Shown piece by piece: positions 3,787 to 20,466 of a DNA stretch of 39,549 bases (positions within the stretch are counted from its first letter, which is position 1; every line of letters begins with the position of its first letter). The stretch comes from a virus. The notes beneath the pieces were generated by a model. The model made no database searches and was not told the origin of the DNA. It was given only the letters and a program-made list of their open reading frames with translations. The stretch lies in the IMG/VR virus record IMGVR_UViG_3300044697_000063, positions 1 to 39,549 of that record. The stretch is one strand, 5' to 3'. The position numbers and the translations under genes were made by a program.

Positions 3787-3815
3787 ATCCTAACATTGAC
3801 AGAGAGTAGTGTCAA
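3787..3815 (-). promoter_or_regulatory. Minus-strand promoter sharing a palindrome with the plus promoter
   Basis: Reading the minus strand, TTGACA (3815-3810) is followed after 17 bases by TAGGAT (3792-3787). The -35 box is one arm of the 7-bp inverted repeat ATTGACA (3795-3801) / TGTCAAT (3810-3816). Transcription would begin near 3780 and enter the ORF at 3760. The -10 is weaker than consensus. Confidence 0.45.
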
Positions 3816-3824
3816 TGGTATAAT
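3796..3824 (+). promoter_or_regulatory. Consensus sigma-70 promoter, predicted leaderless transcript
   Basis: TTGACA at 3796-3801, exactly 17 bases, TATAAT at 3819-3824: a full-consensus promoter. The ATG of the next gene is at 3831, only six bases beyond the -10, so the expected +1 falls on or within a base or two of the start codon. The -35 box is the left arm of the inverted repeat whose right arm is the -35 of the divergent promoter. A protein bound to the palindrome would shut both directions. Confidence 0.85.
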
Positions 3825-3830
3825 GGATTC

Positions 3831-4118
3831 ATGTTTAATGACGCTGAAATCGCAACCAGTTTTAGGGAACTCACAGGCACTCCGTTCGGCTGCTATCCAC
3901 TGGCCAGTAAACTAACCGAGGCTCGCGAATCCCGACCGACCTGGGCAATAAATATCGATTTGCTCACGCGACATATCGTGGGCGATCTCAAGTATCGAAA
4001 ACTGTGTATAGCTCATCGCTATTGGCTGCTTAATCAGACCGCCCGCGAGATTGCAAACGATATTGGCATCAGCCTCGAAGCGGTGCAAAACATCATATAC
4101 CGGCTGCAAAAAACGTGA
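3831..4118 (+). CDS. Helix-turn-helix protein with a sigma-region-4-like C-terminus
   Basis: A 95-residue protein. The C-terminal part (YRKLCIAHRYWLLNQ, then TAREIANDIGISLEAVQNIIYRL) is a clear HTH of the sigma-70 region 4 type. The first 55 residues have no recognised domain. It probably binds DNA as a small regulator; it is too short for a full sigma factor. No Shine-Dalgarno is present because the promoter places +1 at the ATG. It is a candidate regulator of its own palindromic promoter (inference). Confidence 0.75.
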   Translation: MFNDAEIATSFRELTGTPFGCYPLASKLTEARESRPTWAINIDLLTRHIVGDLKYRKLCIAHRYWLLNQTAREIANDIGISLEAVQNIIYRLQKT

Positions 4119-7586: not shown

Positions 7587-7949
7587 TTAGTATTCGCTCG
7601 GCAGTAAGATCACCTTATCGGTGTACCACAGTTCAACGGTAGGCAATGGAAAGTCGGTAAACTCGATCTTCTTTGTCATTACGACATTCCCATTACCATC
7701 CTCGCATGTCAGGGTGGCGCTGGAGTCTTTGACTGCCAGCTTCCACACCTGAAACGCTTCGGCATTGACTTTCACATCGTACACCTGTGCCAGTGCGATC
7801 TCATCCAAGAGCCAATACGCCCCGGCATGATCGGCAACATGCTTCGCACCATCGGTGCATGTGATATTGGTTAGCCCGAACTTGTACCACTGCTCTGTAC
7901 CAGTGAACTGGCCAAGGTCAGACAGTTTCAAATCCATTAGTTTTGGCAT
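7587..7949 (-). CDS. Conserved protein of the LPSEY-ending type (DUF6876-like)
   Basis: A 120-residue protein. The features DLGQFTGTEQWYKFGLTN, YTDG-like CTDGAKHVADHAGAYWLLDEI, FQVWKL and the final VELWYTDKVILLPSEY match a small family I remember as DUF6876; the name is from memory and was not checked. The function is unknown. It has GAAGGAGGT upstream and is overlapped at its start by the 36-residue ORF 7918-8028. Confidence 0.75.
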   Translation of the reverse strand: MPKLMDLKLSDLGQFTGTEQWYKFGLTNITCTDGAKHVADHAGAYWLLDEIALAQVYDVKVNAEAFQVWKLAVKDSSATLTCEDGNGNVVMTKKIEFTDFPLPTVELWYTDKVILLPSEY

Positions 7950-8028
7950 CTTGTTTGTACCTCCTTCTCTTTGCCATAGAGATTGTCAGTTCGTTGTGAA
8001 CCTCGAAGTCTGGTTCGTTCTCACTCAT
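7918..8028 (-). CDS. Small ORF, 36 residues, first gene after an internal promoter
   Basis: ATG at 8028-8026 has GCAGGAG directly upstream at good spacing. The product has an acidic start (MSENEPDFEVHNELTIS) and a basic middle (MAKRRRYKQDAK), ending NGFETV. Its TGA lies 32 bases inside the next gene. It could be a real small protein or a leader coupling translation of 7587-7949. The family is not recognised. Confidence 0.5.
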   Translation of the reverse strand: MSENEPDFEVHNELTISMAKRRRYKQDAKTNGFETV

Positions 8029-8057
8029 AGCTCCTGCTTTCTGTCCGGCAACCGGAC

Positions 8058-8087
8058 GTTATACCAATATGGATGCAGCACTGTCAA
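8058..8087 (-). promoter_or_regulatory. Internal minus-strand promoter with a palindrome at +1
   Basis: On the minus strand TTGACA (8087-8082), 18 bases, TATAAC (8063-8058). Immediately downstream GTCCGG (8043-8048) and CCGGAC (8052-8057) form a perfect palindrome around the expected start site. A similar palindrome, TGTCCG-N5-CGGACA, lies at 4422-4438. It should drive 8028 and downstream genes separately from the promoter at 11498-11525. Confidence 0.6.
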
Positions 8088-8094
8088 CTTGGAT

Positions 8095-8343
8095 TCATTC
8101 GTCATTGTCAGCATGGTATAATGACTCTTCACCCGCCATGCTCTCACCAATGCCGCCCTCCTGCAAACATTGCTTCAATAAATCAAAAGCAGAGTCATAC
8201 TCAACCGTGACTTTGTGCAACGTGCCAAAGCTCGCATGAGGTTGACCCACCATTGCATTCTTCGCCGCCTTGCGCGTGCGCTCACGAATCGAATAGGCGG
8301 GTGAGTCATCCAATCGCTCGGCAACCCAATAAGTTAGTTTCAT
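8095..8343 (-). CDS. Small conserved-looking phage protein, 82 residues
   Basis: It starts MKLTYWVAERLDDSPAYSIR and continues RTRKAAKNAMVG, then a short beta-type stretch (SFGTLHKVTVEYDSAFDLLKQC) and an acidic tail ending YHADNDE. I recall similar short proteins in phage genomes without function. It overlaps the previous stop by ATGA and ends just before the internal promoter at 8058-8087. Confidence 0.65.
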   Translation of the reverse strand: MKLTYWVAERLDDSPAYSIRERTRKAAKNAMVGQPHASFGTLHKVTVEYDSAFDLLKQCLQEGGIGESMAGEESLYHADNDE

Positions 8344-8708
8344 AAATCACCGCGTGCTTTCTCTGTCAATTTGGATTCTTTAAACTTGTACCCATCGGCA
8401 TTAGGGTACAGTTTGTCGTACTCCTCGGTGGACAGCGCAACCTCACGAACACGCGATACTTTGGTATAGATACCTCGAAACATATCGCGCAAACGTGCAT
8501 CGCCTGAGAATTCAGGTTGGTTGGCATCAAGCGCACGGGTAATGAGTGCTTCGATCTCACCCGCCACTAACAGCTCACTGCATATCTCGCAAGCGGCCAT
8601 ATAACCAGCATTCATTTGAATATGCAATGCTGGCACATCGATCTCCGGTTGTTTGAACATCCAGACCGGATTCGGTCGCGTGCAAAAATCACAAACCAAG
8701 CTCTTCAT
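8340..8708 (-). CDS. Two-CxxC zinc-binding-type protein (paralogue of 5496-5816)
   Basis: A 122-residue product with GAGGTGAACT before the ATG. The N-terminus MKSLVCDFCTRPNPVWMF gives the first C-x2-C, and MAACEICSELLVAGEIEALI about 30 residues later gives the second, followed by a helix. This is the common CDFC...ACxxC family of unknown function, probably a small zinc ribbon. The C-terminal extension (VSRVREVALSTEEYDKLYPN) is not present in the paralogue at 5496. Confidence 0.75.
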   Translation of the reverse strand: MKSLVCDFCTRPNPVWMFKQPEIDVPALHIQMNAGYMAACEICSELLVAGEIEALITRALDANQPEFSGDARLRDMFRGIYTKVSRVREVALSTEEYDKLYPNADGYKFKESKLTEKARGDL

Positions 8709-8711
8709 AGT

Positions 8712-8984
8712 TCACCTCTTAGGAATTTGCTGGCCTAACACGTATTCCACGCAATAGGCCATATACATTGGATCATTTTCTTGACCCAAGGTTTCATTGA
8801 TTCGTGCAATCACTGGCCGAATGATCTCTTCGGCAACAATGTCCGCATAGCTACGGTGTTGATTGCTCGGGTCGCCTGTCATCCTGTAACGCTTGTACAG
8901 GTTGACCGCCTTGGCAATCTCCGCTGGCAATAGAAAATCCGGCAACGTGATGTAACGGCGCTCAGTTGTGTTATCAGTGTTCAT
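8712..8984 (-). CDS. Hypothetical protein, 90 residues, helical
   Basis: The ribosome site GAAGGGAGATCACA precedes the ATG. The product has a polar start ([19 protein letters not shown]), then predicted helices (PAEIAKAVNLYKRYRMTG, YADIVAEEIIRPVIARI) and ends AYCVEYVLGQQIPKR. No family or motif is recognised. The 22-codon ORF 8974-9042 ends just inside it. Confidence 0.65.
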   Translation of the reverse strand: MNTDNTTERRYITLPDFLLPAEIAKAVNLYKRYRMTGDPSNQHRSYADIVAEEIIRPVIARINETLGQENDPMYMAYCVEYVLGQQIPKR

Positions 8985-9042
8985 TGTGATCTCCCTTCAG
9001 ATCATCTCCGAATCGCCGTTCTGCAATTAGTTTCGGCGTCAC
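8974..9042 (-). CDS. Tiny ORF, 22 residues, GTG start
   Basis: GTG at 9042-9040 overlaps the previous gene's TGA (9041-9039) as GTGA and sits four bases after a perfect AAGGAGGT. The frame encodes a short charged peptide beginning [17 protein letters not shown] and ends 11 bases inside the next gene. It may be a micropeptide or a coupling device. Its existence rests on the ribosome site and the overlap only. Confidence 0.45.
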
Positions 9043-9239
9043 TGTGACCTCCTTCCGAGTTTGTTGTGAGTGTCTTTGACAAGTCCGGCCTTAATCAACG
9101 CCGCCGCTTGCCTGCCGTACATGCCTTGCAACGTCCAAGCCATGCCATTATCTACCAGCTCTTGAAATAGGGCAATGGTTTGTGCCTCATCCAATTGCCC
9201 ATCTTCCCAAGCCATTAACTGCCCTACCATGTCTGGCAT
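9039..9239 (-). CDS. Conserved small phage protein (GxLDExxTxxLFQ type)
   Basis: A 66-residue product from ATG 9239, which has GGGGAG at good spacing; the ATG at 9245 would be too close to it. The pattern [44 protein letters not shown] is widespread in phages. From memory this may be the family called DUF7417, which was not verified. It is all-helical with no catalytic motif, and its function is unknown. Confidence 0.75.
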
Positions 9240-9241
9240 TG

Positions 9242-9541
9242 TCATCTCCCCGCGATAGGCTGCATCGCGTTTAGGTATTGATTCGGCTCATAACCTTCCA
9301 TCCTGTACCACTTGGTTGGCAACTGCCGGTTATAGTGCTCGCATAGGCTCACACTTCGCAAGTGTGGATTGCCCATGCCGTACCGTTTCATTAGTTCAGC
9401 CGCACCTCGCGTGCGAAATGGCCCGATGACGTATTGATAGGCGTCTGGGTCGATCTTCGCTACAAGACTATCGGTTGTCGGTGTCACTGCCGAACGAAAT
9501 ACAATCCTGCTAGTGGACGATACTCCCACATAGAAACTCAT
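9242..9541 (-). CDS. Hypothetical protein, 99 residues
   Basis: The start chosen is ATG 9541 ([15 protein letters not shown]) with GAGG upstream; an in-frame start at 9595 exists but falls inside the separate small ORF 9538-9615. The middle ([21 protein letters not shown]) resembles short single-domain phage proteins that present a GPFxT motif. The C-terminus is polar with [13 protein letters not shown]. No function is known. Confidence 0.65.
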
Positions 9542-9615
9542 CTTCGATACCTCGCTTTGGCCCGTGCATTTTGCTCGAACCATGCGCGTAGCCATTCTCT
9601 AAATGTTATCGTCAT
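9538..9615 (-). CDS. Micropeptide, 25 residues, basic amphipathic
   Basis: ATG at 9615-9613 follows GAGGTAATCAAG. The peptide (MTITFREWLRAWFEQN followed by ARAKARYRR) forms a basic amphipathic helix. Its TGA overlaps the ATG of the next gene by ATGA. The ribosome site and the overlap support translation. No family is known. Confidence 0.55.
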   Translation of the reverse strand: MTITFREWLRAWFEQNARAKARYRR

Positions 9616-9636
9616 CTTGATTACCTCAACCGCATC

Positions 9637-9939
9637 TTACGCATGAGCATAAGATGCCGTTGCGCCAATCAAAGGCGCAATACCTGTTACTAACTCGCTG
9701 TTGCTCGGGATAGCCTCAACCAACACTGCCTGTTGATGATTCGCTTCCCGTATCAGCTCGGCGCATTGGTGGACGCCTGCCGCATCATCGGTCTCAATCT
9801 CAATGACTAGCGATGGTTCAGGGATGCCTTCCCAGCGTCCGGTGGCCTTGACAATGGTGTACCCTTGAAAGTGCGCATCAAGAATAGCCGTGATATTGTC
9901 CCGGCCTGTATCTTCGGTCATAATCTGATAGAGCATCAT
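9637..9939 (-). CDS. Conserved hypothetical protein, ferredoxin-like pattern
   Basis: A 100-residue product with AAAGGGAGATCA before ATGATG. The order of elements (MLYQIMTED, ILDAHFQGYTIVKATGRWEG, EPSLVIEIETDD, HQCAELIREANHQQAVLVEA) gives a beta-alpha-beta-beta-alpha-beta layout. The G-x-W-x-G, E-P-S and QQAVL motifs recur in phage and prophage proteins that I know only as unknown. The C-terminus is Ala-rich. Confidence 0.65.
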   Translation of the reverse strand: MMLYQIMTEDTGRDNITAILDAHFQGYTIVKATGRWEGIPEPSLVIEIETDDAAGVHQCAELIREANHQQAVLVEAIPSNSELVTGIAPLIGATASYAHA

Positions 9940-11269: not shown

Positions 11270-11366
11270 GAGACCTCCGCTTGGCTTCCGTTGAATACAG
11301 GGCATAGCCGATAGCGACTATGATGCTATCGATCGAAGCCGCTAGGATTAGAGTTAGGACCATCAT
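11259..11366 (-). CDS. Membrane micropeptide, 35 residues
   Basis: ATGATG at 11366-11361 overlaps the previous TGA (ATGA). GGGAG is seven bases upstream. The sequence is one membrane span (MMVLTLILAASIDSIIVAIG), then YALYSTEAKRRSHVS, a positively charged end that would favour an outside-in orientation. It is adjacent to another span-only gene (11363-11461). Confidence 0.6.
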   Translation of the reverse strand: MMVLTLILAASIDSIIVAIGYALYSTEAKRRSHVS

Positions 11367-11461
11367 AGCGTCACTCCCAGCGAGCGGAGAATTGACGCCA
11401 GAATGATTAGCAGGGCTATGGCGTAGTAGCTGAACGATTCGGCTTTGAGATTGAGTGTCAT
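11363..11461 (-). CDS. Membrane micropeptide, 32 residues, first gene of the minus operon
   Basis: ATG at 11461-11459 with GAGG upstream, about 30 bases after the expected transcription start of the promoter at 11498-11525. The peptide is MTLNLKAESFSYYAIALLII followed by LASILRSLGVTL: a short amphipathic start then one membrane span. Its first codons and ribosome site belong to the repeated 24-base cassette (11453-11476). Confidence 0.6.
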   Translation of the reverse strand: MTLNLKAESFSYYAIALLIILASILRSLGVTL

Positions 11462-11497
11462 TAGCGTTAGCCTCAATTGGATTGTTAAAGCATGGCC

Positions 11498-11525
11498 ATC
11501 ATAGCACATGGTTGACAGTAGTCAA
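11498..11525 (-). promoter_or_regulatory. Main promoter of the long minus-strand operon
   Basis: Minus strand: TTGACT (11525-11520), 16 bases, TATGAT (11503-11498). Its -35 is one arm of the palindrome TTGAC-AGTA-GTCAA (11512-11525), whose other arm is the -35 of a plus-strand promoter. Transcription should start near 11490 and enter 11461. Confidence 0.7.
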
Positions 11526-11540
11526 GCGCTATAGTATATT
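11512..11540 (+). promoter_or_regulatory. Plus-strand promoter reading into the non-coding region
   Basis: TTGACA (11512-11517), exactly 17 bases, TATATT (11535-11540). It overlaps the divergent minus promoter through a shared palindrome, as at 3795-3816. No gene with a ribosome site follows for about 360 bases, so the RNA would be non-coding or a long leader. Confidence 0.6.
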
Positions 11541-11869
11541 TTCTTTTCAATAACTTACGATTTCCACAATTGTGCGCTATCGCACGTATTACCTAGCAGA
11601 GGGAAAAAAGTTGAGGTTGCGGACCTCGAAACAAAAAACCTCAAATCGCAAACTCTGAAAACCCTCCGGATGGTATCAATTCGGTATCACTGAGCTGATA
11701 TCACGTGTAGAATGTTAGTGTTAGGTAGTATGCTGTATTCTATTTAATCGTTTTTGTTGATGCCGATAGGGTCCCCTATTCTTGGGGATGCTAAGGGGAT
11801 GCCGCCAGGCCCCCTTGCGGCCCGCGAGCCGGTGCAAGTTGCCTGGTGATACCCCGGGAAAGTACGTCC
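11541..11869. other. Structured non-coding divergent control region
   Basis: No supported gene. Elements seen: TTGAGGTT (from 11610) paired with AACCTCAA about 24 bases later; two GGTATCA copies followed by TGATATCA around 11670-11702; CCCC/GGGG hairpin and two GGGGATGC copies around 11773-11802; and a long nested hairpin with CCAGGC (11805-11810)/GCCTGG (11841-11846), CTTGC (11814-11818)/GCAAG (11834-11838), CGGC/GCCG inside. A 29-codon frame from an ATG near 11759 lacks a ribosome site. It may be an RNA gene, operators, or a replication origin. Confidence 0.5.
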
Positions 11870-11898
11870 TTGACAAACACGACGCTGGTTAGTATAAT
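11870..11898 (+). promoter_or_regulatory. Consensus sigma-70 promoter, predicted leaderless transcript
   Basis: TTGACA (11870-11875), 17 bases, TATAAT (11893-11898), with the ATG of the next gene at 11905, six bases beyond the -10. The layout is identical to the promoters at 3796 and 16028. Confidence 0.85.
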
Positions 11899-11904
11899 GT
11901 CTGT

Positions 11905-12432
11905 ATGGTTAATGCAGGTATGGCTCTAGGATCTATCTCTTCCAATATCACGAAACCGGTTTACCGGTATTTCGTATTCGAATACGACCATTCCTATCCC
12001 ATAAATGAAGAAATCCTGAATCGATTTGGTTCCGGAGGGTGGGAAGCGGTATGTTCTCTCACAAATTTAGGTCGTCCGGCACTACTTTTCAAACGCTTCG
12101 AAGGCTGGCACCCGGCCATCCCCTTGCCGCCGTCTTCCCAGGAGCCCTTACCGGCGTCCTCTAACAGACCGGAGCAGATCAGCCAAGCTGAAGAACAGAC
12201 TGCCGAGCAAGCATTCGGTGAACTCAACCGCATCGTTGAAGAGATCGTCACTCCGAACACTACGGCAACCTGCAACATCTGCAATCAGCCGATGCCGGAA
12301 GGCGAAGAGATGTTCAACTATCACGGCTACAGCGGCCCCTGCCCGCCCCCGCCACCGAAGTTCAGTCATTATGACTGTGGTGAATTCATCCATACTGACG
12401 AGAATGGATACGTGATTGGACCGGTGATCTAA
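11905..12432 (+). CDS. DUF4177-like N-terminus with C-terminal zinc-ribbon-like segment
   Basis: A 175-residue protein. Residues about 18-65 (PVYRYFVFEYDHSYPINEEI, LNRFGSGGWEAVCSL, ALLFKR) have the tyrosine-rich strand, G-x-GW-E-AV and FKR features of small DUF4177-type domains (assignment from memory). A Pro/Ser/Gln-rich linker follows. The C-terminus has CNICNQPMPEGEEMFNYHG and SHYDCGEF, giving C-x2-C plus Cys/His for metal. It heads the methyltransferase operon and is expected to be translated from a leaderless mRNA. Function unknown. Confidence 0.7.
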   Translation: MVNAGMALGSISSNITKPVYRYFVFEYDHSYPINEEILNRFGSGGWEAVCSLTNLGRPALLFKRFEGWHPAIPLPPSSQEPLPASSNRPEQISQAEEQTAEQAFGELNRIVEEIVTPNTTATCNICNQPMPEGEEMFNYHGYSGPCPPPPPKFSHYDCGEFIHTDENGYVIGPVI

Positions 12433-15071: not shown

Positions 15072-15144
15072 GGCGGGGAAGTGAAATGGCATCACGAGAC
15101 CCTCATAAGGTCTAGATCCGGTTCGAATCCGGCGACCGCCCCCA
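15072..15144 (+). tRNA. tRNA-like gene, anticodon CAT (Met or Ile2), imperfect acceptor
   Basis: D-arm GTGA...TCAC, anticodon arm AGACC-CTCATAA-GGTCT with anticodon CAT, T-loop TTCGAAT and an encoded CCA end are all present. The acceptor pairs only at its outer five positions (GGCGG with CCGCC); positions 6 and 7 and the outer T-stem pair are mismatched, and the variable region is short (73 bases in total). It is either a degenerating or an unusual phage tRNA. Confidence 0.6.
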
Positions 15145-15778: not shown

Positions 15779-16050
15779 ACGCAACCGACGTAATTGACGC
15801 CTGGCGCTGCGACTACTGCAACATCTACGTCTATAACCTCGAAGTGAAGGGTGGGGTTCTCGGCCCGACACACGGCGCCCCGACCCCCAAGTACCTCTCG
15901 AAGCTGTATCCCAAGGTCTGCACCCTGTGCTTTGACATGCACAACGTGATTAAAGACAACGACTACTTCATGTGTGAGCAGACGAAGTGGGAAGATGCAG
16001 GCCACACACAGCAGCCGATGAATGCAATTGACAGAGGACGTATCTTGTAG
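15775..16050 (+). CDS. Two-CxxC zinc-ribbon-like protein
   Basis: 91 residues, ATGA overlap. It contains WRCDYCNIYVYNLEVKGG and, 25 residues later, VCTLCFDMHNVIKDND, a C-x2-C...C-x2-C pair, plus a later Cys (YFMCEQ). It is a small zinc-binding protein of unknown role. The next gene's promoter (16028) lies inside its last codons. Confidence 0.6.
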   Translation: MNATDVIDAWRCDYCNIYVYNLEVKGGVLGPTHGAPTPKYLSKLYPKVCTLCFDMHNVIKDNDYFMCEQTKWEDAGHTQQPMNAIDRGRIL

Positions 16051-16056
16051 TATAAT
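16028..16056 (+). promoter_or_regulatory. Consensus sigma-70 promoter, predicted leaderless transcript
   Basis: TTGACA (16028-16033), 17 bases, TATAAT (16051-16056), ATG of the next gene at 16063, six bases later. This is the third case of the same geometry. It sits at the end of the 15775 gene, so it is an internal promoter giving the lysis and membrane genes their own transcript. Confidence 0.85.
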
Positions 16057-16062
16057 GCCAGC

Positions 16063-16287
16063 ATGTATTATTACATCATGCCGGTTGTTACGTTAGTATG
16101 TGTCCTCACTCTCCTCCTTATGCTCGAAGAGTTCACCAAGCGCTGGGTACGGCGCAGGCAGTACAAAAAGTTCTACTGGGAGCTACTCGATATCCAGGAC
16201 GTGCTCAACGCTGCGCTCGACAGCTCTGAGGCGGATAGGAAGCTCAAGATCAAATATTCCGTGAATGAACTGCGGAAACTAGTCTGA
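16063..16287 (+). CDS. Small membrane protein with basic-helix tail, 74 residues
   Basis: One N-terminal membrane span (YIMPVVTLVCVLTLLLMLEE) followed by a strongly basic stretch (TKRWVRRRQYKKFYWELL) and a helix (VLNAALDSSEADRKLKIKY). It is translated from a leaderless promoter. The single span with a cytoplasmic charged tail next to a secreted protein and the hydrolase makes a lysis-timing or holin-like role possible (inference). Confidence 0.6.
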   Translation: MYYYIMPVVTLVCVLTLLLMLEEFTKRWVRRRQYKKFYWELLDIQDVLNAALDSSEADRKLKIKYSVNELRKLV

Positions 16288-17436: not shown

Positions 17437-17511
17437 TGGCATGTAGCTCAACGGCAGAGCTGTTGACTGTTACTCAACCGGTTGGAGGTTCGAATCCTCC
17501 CGTGCCAGCCA
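17437..17511 (+). tRNA. tRNA-Asn (GTT)
   Basis: All arms pair: acceptor TGGCATG/CGTGCCA (one G-T), D-stem GCTC/GAGC, anticodon stem GTTGA/TCAAC with loop CTGTTAC (anticodon GTT), T-stem GGAGG/CCTCC with loop TTCGAAT. The CCA end is encoded. Length 75 bases. It lies alone between the hydrolase and the 17635 gene. Confidence 0.93.
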
Positions 17512-18279: not shown

Positions 18280-18355
18280 GCCAGCGTAGCTCAAGCGGAA
18301 GAGCAACCGCACTGTAAGCGGAAGCGTGGGGTTTCGACTATCTCCGCTGGCTCCA
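18280..18355 (+). tRNA. tRNA-Thr (TGT) with C at position 33
   Basis: Acceptor GCCAGCG/CGCTGGC, D-stem GCTC/GAGC, anticodon stem with four good pairs around loop ACTGTAA (anticodon TGT), T-stem GGGGT/ATCTC with two G-T pairs and loop TTCGACT, CCA encoded; 76 bases. Position 33, almost always T, is C here, and the outermost anticodon-stem pair is A-A. Reading the anticodon as GTA (Tyr) would break the stem. Confidence 0.85.
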
Positions 18356-18357
18356 AT

Positions 18358-18432
18358 GGGCCTGTAGTGCTAGTGCGAACACGCCCCGCTTGCACCGGGG
18401 AATCAGAGGTTGAACTCCTCTCAGGTCCACCA
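18358..18432 (+). tRNA. tRNA-Ala (TGC)
   Basis: It begins two bases after the previous tRNA. Acceptor GGGCCTG/CAGGTCC (one G-T), D-arm GTG/CAC, anticodon stem CCCCG/CGGGG with loop CTTGCAC (anticodon TGC), T-stem AGAGG/CCTCT with loop TTGAACT (G where C56 is usual), CCA encoded; 75 bases. The next gene's ATG is four bases after the CCA end. Confidence 0.88.
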
Positions 18433-18436
18433 AATT

Positions 18437-18691
18437 ATGGCAGCTAAAGACGTACTCGCGGGTCAAGCAAGAGGGCAGGGAACCAAGGTCGCGGAGTATT
18501 CCGAGGCTGGGCCTTTCCATTGTAAAGACTGCACGTATCTGAAGACGCCAGGCCCCGATGCGGCCCACGGCCTCTGCAACCAGAAAGTCATGCTGAAAGA
18601 TCCTCAGGTCAAGACGGATGCGAAAAGTAAGTTAAAAATCGTCAACATCGAGCATGGCTGCTGCCGGTTCGTGAAGGTAAAAAATGGCTAA
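18437..18691 (+). CDS. Small Cys-rich protein (HiPIP-like or zinc)
   Basis: 84 residues from ATG 18437. Cysteines: HCKDCTYLKTPGPDAAHGLC, then GCCRF near the C-terminus. The arrangement C-x2-C...C...CC is that of a small metal or iron-sulfur-binding protein; similar short proteins occur in phage structural regions (memory). The ATG is only four bases after the tRNA-Ala CCA, and there is no ribosome site, so translation probably depends on tRNA processing or on coupling. Confidence 0.65.
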   Translation: MAAKDVLAGQARGQGTKVAEYSEAGPFHCKDCTYLKTPGPDAAHGLCNQKVMLKDPQVKTDAKSKLKIVNIEHGCCRFVKVKNG

Positions 18692-19894: not shown

Positions 19895-20466
19895 TGATAG
19901 GTCTGAGCAATGCACTTACTCCGAGCATCGATACGATCGGACTGCAGGTTGCGATTGGCCCCGCGACCTTGTGGTTGAACGGTACCGTCATTATCTCGCC
20001 CTTCAGCTACGTATATTTGTCCAATAACTCGACCACCTACATCTATCTGAACACGACTAGCGGCCAGATCGGTGCTAATAATTCTGGTTATGCATCCGGT
20101 AACATCCCCATCGCCACGGTTATAACCAATCTCACGCGAGTTACAAGCCTGATCGACACACGGCCTGATTTTACCAACATCGGCAGCGCAACTGGAAGCG
20201 GTGGCACGGTGTGGGCTGATGTAAGCAGCAGCGGAACGTTCGTTCCGACCTCGCTCAACCAATCTATCAATGCTTCAGGAACTATATCGATCGCGCTCAC
20301 TGCAGTCGCCGGTCAGATCTACAACGTCGTGAACACAGGAAATGGGGTCATAACCCTGACCACCACCGCTTCAGCGACCATTTACGAGTTAGTCAATCAA
20401 AACCAGGCCGTACAAATTAGTTACGACATCACCAGTACGACGTTCCGAGTCCTGGGGGGAAATTAA
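19894..20466 (+). CDS. Virion attachment module protein, paralogue of 36943-37557
   Basis: A 190-residue protein with a hallmark segment at residues 40-95 (YVYLSNNSTTYIYLNTTSGQ, SGNIPIATVITNLTRVTS, LIDTRPDF) that is also present in 36943-37557 (TSYIYLNTSTGAIQSNTSGF, YSIATVLTS, LTDNRPDV). This unit occurs in baseplate or fibre-attachment proteins (from memory). The C-terminal half is beta-rich (AGQIYNVVNTGNGVITLTTT). There is no signal peptide, unlike the following gene. Confidence 0.65.
   Translation: MIGLSNALTPSIDTIGLQVAIGPATLWLNGTVIISPFSYVYLSNNSTTYIYLNTTSGQIGANNSGYASGNIPIATVITNLTRVTSLIDTRPDFTNIGSATGSGGTVWADVSSSGTFVPTSLNQSINASGTISIALTAVAGQIYNVVNTGNGVITLTTTASATIYELVNQNQAVQISYDITSTTFRVLGGN

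Follow-up and report, generated by a model that had tools for sequence, protein, structure and literature searches.

A candidate structured RNA on the leftward strand of the junction between divergent gene blocks in a soil phage

The window analysed here is a phage record of 39,549 bases, taken at its full length. Genes to the left of position 11305 mostly run leftward and genes to the right of 11905 run rightward, and positions 11541–11869 form the gap between these divergent blocks in what is a soil phage. The gap was confirmed to be free of genes. Inside it the plus strand contains no open reading frame of at least 50 amino acids, and the longest frame in the gap, 51 amino acids with a TTG start, lies on the minus strand at 11721–11876. 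Coding on either strand was rejected, as a one-base indel falls inside the best-conserved block when the window is aligned with a related phage, G001. The features that surround or mark the gap are as follows.

11512–11540, plus strand: promoter-like site (11/12), with a leftward promoter-like site in back-to-back orientation at 11525–11498
11604–11627, minus strand: hairpin GAGGTCCGCAACCTC resembling an intrinsic terminator, with AAC and six T after it, in the window phage
11822–11855, strand not assigned: most conserved block, 34 nt, 91% identical to G001
11870–11898, plus strand: promoter P2, TTGACA-17-TATAAT (12/12), directly before gene 11905
11905–12432, plus strand: gene for a 175-amino acid protein, probably with a leaderless mRNA; the next gene, at 12432, is syntenic in G001

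The promoter at 11870 shares its perfect 12/12 sigma70-like score with those at 3796 and 16028, the only two others in the window, and in all three the ATG lies exactly six bases past TATAAT, giving promoter-to-ATG spans of 3796–3831, 11870–11905 and 16028–16063. Taking the window together with positions 20001–80000 of a second relative, G010, there are 13 promoters scoring at least 11/12, and only these three have the six-base spacing. A −10 hexamer whose first T lies 12 bases before the start codon has been published as a sign of leaderless genes, which that study puts at 13.3% of genes on average in three of three Acidobacteria genomes (PMC3160421). Since the spacing at 11905 matches this signature, the gene needs no leader and is probably translated from a leaderless mRNA. 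The promoter is conserved in G001 as TTGACA-17-TATACT, likewise six nucleotides before the ATG.

A preliminary description of the gap had pointed to a plus-strand promoter firing into DNA with inverted and direct repeats, and had offered a structured RNA, a long leader for gene 11905 or a replication origin as readings. Its observations hold. The promoter TTGACA-17-TATATT, an 11/12 sigma70-like match, is present at 11512–11540, the hairpin at 11805–11846 is exact, and so are the repeats GGGGATGC at 11784 and 11795 and GGTATCA at 11672 and 11683. The repeats alone mean little, because GGTATCA occurs seven times in the window against 3.8 expected, a count that 9 of 100 shuffled sequences reach.

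Folding of the window sequence by itself favours the plus strand. RNA from 11547–11869 on that strand folds to −107 kcal/mol (z −3.2), with none of 100 shuffles as low; a second independent run gave z −2.98, and 2 of 50 background strand-windows from the same phage were lower. By thermodynamics alone the plus-strand fold is therefore moderately unusual but not extreme. Single-sequence folds across the gap in the window gave z values of −2.8 to −3.8 on the plus strand versus −1.8 on the minus strand, while those of G001 were weak on both strands. The lowest single-sequence z among the 50 background strand-windows belongs to the stretch starting at 9601 on the plus strand.

G001 (57 kb) is the one diverged relative with the same locus. 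Its terminase is 83% identical over the best segment, its major capsid protein is 96% identical, and its gene order matches, with leftward genes, a gap, an 11905-like gene and a 12432-like gene. Over the part it shares with the window, the second relative, G010 (82 kb), has nearly the same sequence, and for that reason it is silent on constraint. The comparative evidence thus comes from two lineages only, the window with G010 and G001, a sample that cannot give real covariation statistics. G010 differs from the otherwise near-identical window in lacking about 700 bases present at 9234–9932 and a further 37 bases within 7865–9233. Insertions ranging from a few hundred bases to about 1000 split the terminase of G001 (L105) and the major capsid genes of many relatives (for example L168, L182, L186–L191 and L193); self-splicing introns or inteins would fit these insertions.

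Aligned gap against gap by gapped pairwise comparison, the window and G001 are 61% identical over 251 nt (E 6e-13), a span that runs from the GGTATCA at 11672 to the promoter before 11905. Conservation is concentrated in islands at about 11864–11816, 11785–11756 and 11685–11666. The 34-nt block in the first of these is 91% identical, whereas the neighbouring protein is only 23% identical in G001. GGTATC in one of the outermost islands is complementary to GATACC in the other, and the GGTATC doublet with its 11-nt spacing is present in G001 too. The phages next in capsid similarity, G011 and G012, are without the element; they keep the 12432-type gene and have a short divergent gap. The nearest cultured relative found was the Tunturiibacter phage Tunturi_3 (terminase 29% identical), whose host is an Acidobacteriota bacterium, which makes a host of that phylum plausible for the window phage also. 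The divergent gap of Tunturi_3 is comparable, being about 650 nt long, and two promoter-like sequences were picked out in it by eye; the folds of that gap are unremarkable.

Consensus folding of the pairwise alignment with RNAalifold gave an answer different from that of the single sequences. On the minus strand the consensus reaches −36.95 kcal/mol (z −6.6), with 0 of 300 column shuffles as low, while on the plus strand it reaches −24.6 kcal/mol (z −1.4), with 25 of 300 as low. We also used a mutational null, in which substitutions are redrawn at the same columns and the conserved columns and starting sequence are retained; this reached the minus-strand fold in 1 of 500 and 0 of 500 trials and the plus-strand fold in 220 of 500 and 130 of 500. 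Two further alignments, a second MAFFT alignment and one from BLAST, gave minus-strand z values of −5.4 and −4.6 against shuffles and −3.35 and −3.16 against mutation, compared with −1.2 and −1.7, and −0.2 and +0.65, on the plus strand. Over all three alignments the minus strand lies at −4.6 to −6.6 (column shuffles) and −3.2 to −3.7 (mutational null), and the plus strand at −1.7 to +0.65. Single-sequence folding had indicated one strand, and one diverged relative sufficed to indicate the other.

The details of the minus-strand consensus are consistent with this result. All 34 consensus pairs are standard in both sequences, five are changed on both sides and none is broken; shifting the partner by one column lowers the paired cells to at most 57%. 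A weaker outcome came from shuffling partners between just the two sequences, which gave 11 of 500. The minus strand outperforms the plus because several pairs that are G·U on the former would be A·C on the latter. As a control, 39 other 200-column alignments from the same phages were scored on both strands, giving a mean z of 0.0 (standard deviation 1.05), with 1 of 78 strand-windows at or below −3.25. One coding window of the 78 was more extreme than the finding itself, and on account of these controls the chance odds were set at about 1–3% rather than at the figure implied by the shuffle z; the empirical p for the minus-strand signal is about 0.01–0.03. The control window in question (9686–9885, plus strand, z −3.98) is antisense to gene 9637–9939 and falls inside the stretch from 9601 with the lowest single-sequence z noted above, and its signal is possibly that of another structured RNA or a codon effect.

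The absence of conserved base pairing had been named in advance as something that would count against a structured RNA. Pairing appears to be kept through compensatory changes beyond chance in these two sequences on the minus strand, and on the plus strand it is no better than chance. It is this comparative conservation, which lay beyond the reach of the preliminary description, that makes the stretch of interest. The proposed minus-strand RNA has the following parts.

11660–11868 (core 11666–11862), minus strand: proposed structured RNA body, from conservation and the minus-strand consensus fold
11848–11856, minus strand: 5′ arm of closing helix P1 (CGGGGUAUC in the RNA), pairing with 11667–11677
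11667–11677, minus strand: 3′ arm of closing helix P1 (GAUACC..CCG in the RNA), inside the island 11685–11666
11805–11846, minus strand: stem P2 with an inner stem, the hairpin seen at the outset; two helices totalling 13 pairs, each of them standard in both phages
11769–11803, minus strand: stem P3 (GG..UCCC with GGGG..CC and a 2-pair extension); 8 pairs, one changed on both sides
11681–11766, minus strand: stem P4 (UCGG at 11766–11763 with CCGA at 11684–11681); 4 pairs, U-A to C-G once

Helix P1 encloses the three stems P2, P3 and P4. Its nine pairs are all standard in both sequences, with one changed on both sides, and its GGUAUC/GAUACC core has a pair probability of 0.97 in the window sequence, where the helix can be extended outward to about 11863–11866. 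In both phages GAUACC recurs 11 nt away (at 11683–11688 in the window), and because of this doubling P1 has two possible registers. Stem P2 changes from CCAGGC/GCCUGG in the window to CCCGGC/GUUGGG, that is, one A-U to C-G and two G-C to G-U replacements, the latter of which would be C·A mismatches on the plus strand. P4 encloses a long, open and weakly conserved loop. The 5′ third of the RNA, made up of the closing arm, the 5′ strand of P2 and its apical loop, shows almost no variation even though its pairing partners drift, suggesting that it is probably also read as sequence, by a protein or another RNA.

An alternative fold is formable in both phages, an extended local hairpin that pairs GGGGU with AUCCCC (ACCCUC in G001). 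This hairpin and P1 are mutually exclusive, since both use GGGGUAUC. In a 237-nt transcript of G001 the closing helix lies 8 kcal/mol above the best fold, in a 218-nt version the extended local hairpin is preferred, and only the 192-nt domain folds alone to the consensus.

Our preferred reading, which we hold to be moderately probable, is that the locus encodes an unclassified structured phage RNA on the minus strand, a small standalone regulatory RNA directed leftward at the gene-block junction. The RNA would be about 210 nt long, running from 11868 to about 11660 toward the leftward gene block, with its ends paired through P1 around P2, P3 and P4. In the window phage transcription would stop at the intrinsic terminator at 11627–11604, giving a standalone RNA of about 250–280 nt, and it is most likely a small regulatory RNA made where the leftward and rightward blocks meet. 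We infer its transcription, exact ends and standalone form. The scan for a minus-strand promoter returned none that is convincing, only a −10-like hexamer (TATACT/TATAGT) with a poor −35 at the matching place about 30–36 nt before the RNA in both phages, and a counterpart of the terminator was not found in G001. Of the readings first offered, a structured RNA was the best, but its assignment to the plus strand did not survive; an RNA is likely, and most likely a leftward one. If it is transcribed, the phages would carry at this junction an RNA, regulatory or structural, that is under stricter conservation than the protein next to it. We regard it as doubtful that the element goes further and forms a new RNA class that acts as a switch at the divergent junction, with two mutually exclusive folds (a closing helix spanning 170 nt with a doubled GAUACC arm, or the extended local hairpin) whose balance would be set by the protein or RNA reading the 5′ third.

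The same minus-strand RNA could instead be a cis-acting leader, which we consider unlikely. Here a transcript starting at about 11870–11900 would control whether transcription passes the terminator at 11604 and enters the leftward genes, as an attenuator, a riboswitch or a put-like antiterminator RNA, with the local hairpin as its second state. The orientation fits the leftward block, the terminator separates the RNA from the leftward promoter-like site, and each of the two exclusive folds can form in both sequences. Read-through would not be needed, however, because the leftward block has a promoter-like site of its own, lying downstream of the RNA (11525–11498 in the window; a 10/12 site at L079 1865–1893 in G001). 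The lack of a detectable terminator in G001 also counts against a leader, as does the lack of any Rfam match at E values up to 10.

Slightly less probable again is that the conserved stretch works as DNA, with GGTATCA sites binding a regulator of the promoter at 11870 and the conservation reflecting protein binding. The geometry fits this reading: two direct GGTATCA sites lie 11 bp apart and an inverted one lies 16 bp before the −35 of that promoter, the doublet (whose second copy reads GGTATCC in G001) and the inverted site occur in both phages, the promoter of G001 lies 12 bp further away, about one helical turn, and the most conserved block is directly upstream of the promoter. Protein binding leaves unexplained why substitutions preserve pairing on one strand only and why P2–P4 exist, and the window shows no clear enrichment of GGTATCA.

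A plus-strand RNA from the promoter at 11512, either standalone or a structured leader of gene 11905 as initially proposed, is very unlikely in spite of the good promoter match and the strongest single-sequence fold being on that strand. The promoter is not conserved: a scan of the G001 locus found no site of at least 10/12 on that strand besides the 11870-type promoter. A plus-strand RNA was rejected on its consensus fold, which is no better than chance in three alignments, and gene 11905 has a perfect promoter of its own set for a leaderless mRNA. A replication origin with iteron-like repeats is the least probable reading of all; there are divergent promoters, a few repeats and sequences that presumably resemble a DnaA box (TTTCCACA at 11561–11568 and two TTTTCCACA in G001), but two direct 7-mers 11 nt apart are not an array, the cumulative GC skew falls on both sides of the locus with only a plateau at about 10–14 kb and no turning point, and no adjoining replication protein was seen among the proteins scanned.

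Searches for further members returned the two known loci. At the gathering threshold, Rfam 15 (4227 families) matched only three tRNAs in the window, and at E up to 10 no family matched 11300–12000 on either strand. The tRNA genes of the window are those for Met (15072–15144), Asn (17437–17511), Thr (18280–18355) and Ala (18358–18432). We built two models, R1 for the plus strand, made before the strand was settled, and R2, which encodes the local-hairpin structure and not the closing helix and so may overlook members in which only that helix is kept. Among 55 records R2 matched only G001 and G010, with no match in G004, G005 or G008; it gave no match in 50 further viral records, in Tunturi_3 or, with stricter filters, in 396 genomes from the phylum of a Bryobacterales metagenome-assembled genome. 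An exact pattern scan of viral contigs had given one stretch, and relaxed DNA patterns gave 16 and 22, of which only the two known loci were real by context; six stretches from genome contigs included none that was real by context, and blastn against phage and plasmid records found nothing.

Several known phage systems offer comparisons. The put elements of phage HK022 lie just downstream of early promoters and suppress termination. The present element is similar in being near early promoters and in that it could modify terminator read-through; compared by position, it differs in lying upstream of the leftward promoter-like site. Candidate structured RNAs from comparative genomics, and the large phage RNAs GOLLD and ROOL, are likewise intergenic, with compensatory changes and a function not known at discovery (PMC12286853, PMC2864571). 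Compared with these, the present RNA is much smaller (about 210 nt), has no Rfam match on either strand and is found in two lineages only. Phage-encoded small RNAs likewise are small, lie between gene blocks and have a terminator-like end (PMC12197685), whereas the present candidate is known from sequence alone and showed no shared 11-nt target complement in the parts scanned, there being none at corresponding places in the window, G010 20001–80000 and the G001 pieces. Little work has been done on phages of soil Acidobacteriota, and a text search of the publication describing the nearest cultured relative found no mention of such RNAs (PMC11924767).

Some smaller observations concern the surroundings of the element. 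At 18546–18579 on the plus strand, 34 bases are 83% identical to the plus strand of 11803–11837 and hence complementary to the proposed RNA; a counterpart was not seen in G001. The GGTATC doublet of G001 comes after a 21-amino acid reading frame (L079 1690–1752, minus strand) that is rich in lysine and glutamine and has a good ribosome site, and its counterpart in the window is only a 15-codon TTG frame of similar composition. A small protein encoded at 115–513 on the minus strand has two helix-turn-helix stretches (LuxR/GerE-like and sigma-70 region 4-like) and is a candidate regulator. Pairs of promoter-like sites arranged back to back around a common palindromic −35 region occur at 3796–3824/3815 as well as at 11512–11540/11525, and the same divergent arrangement is seen twice more, about 910 bases apart, at L119 17990 and 18900 (G010 77990 and 78900).
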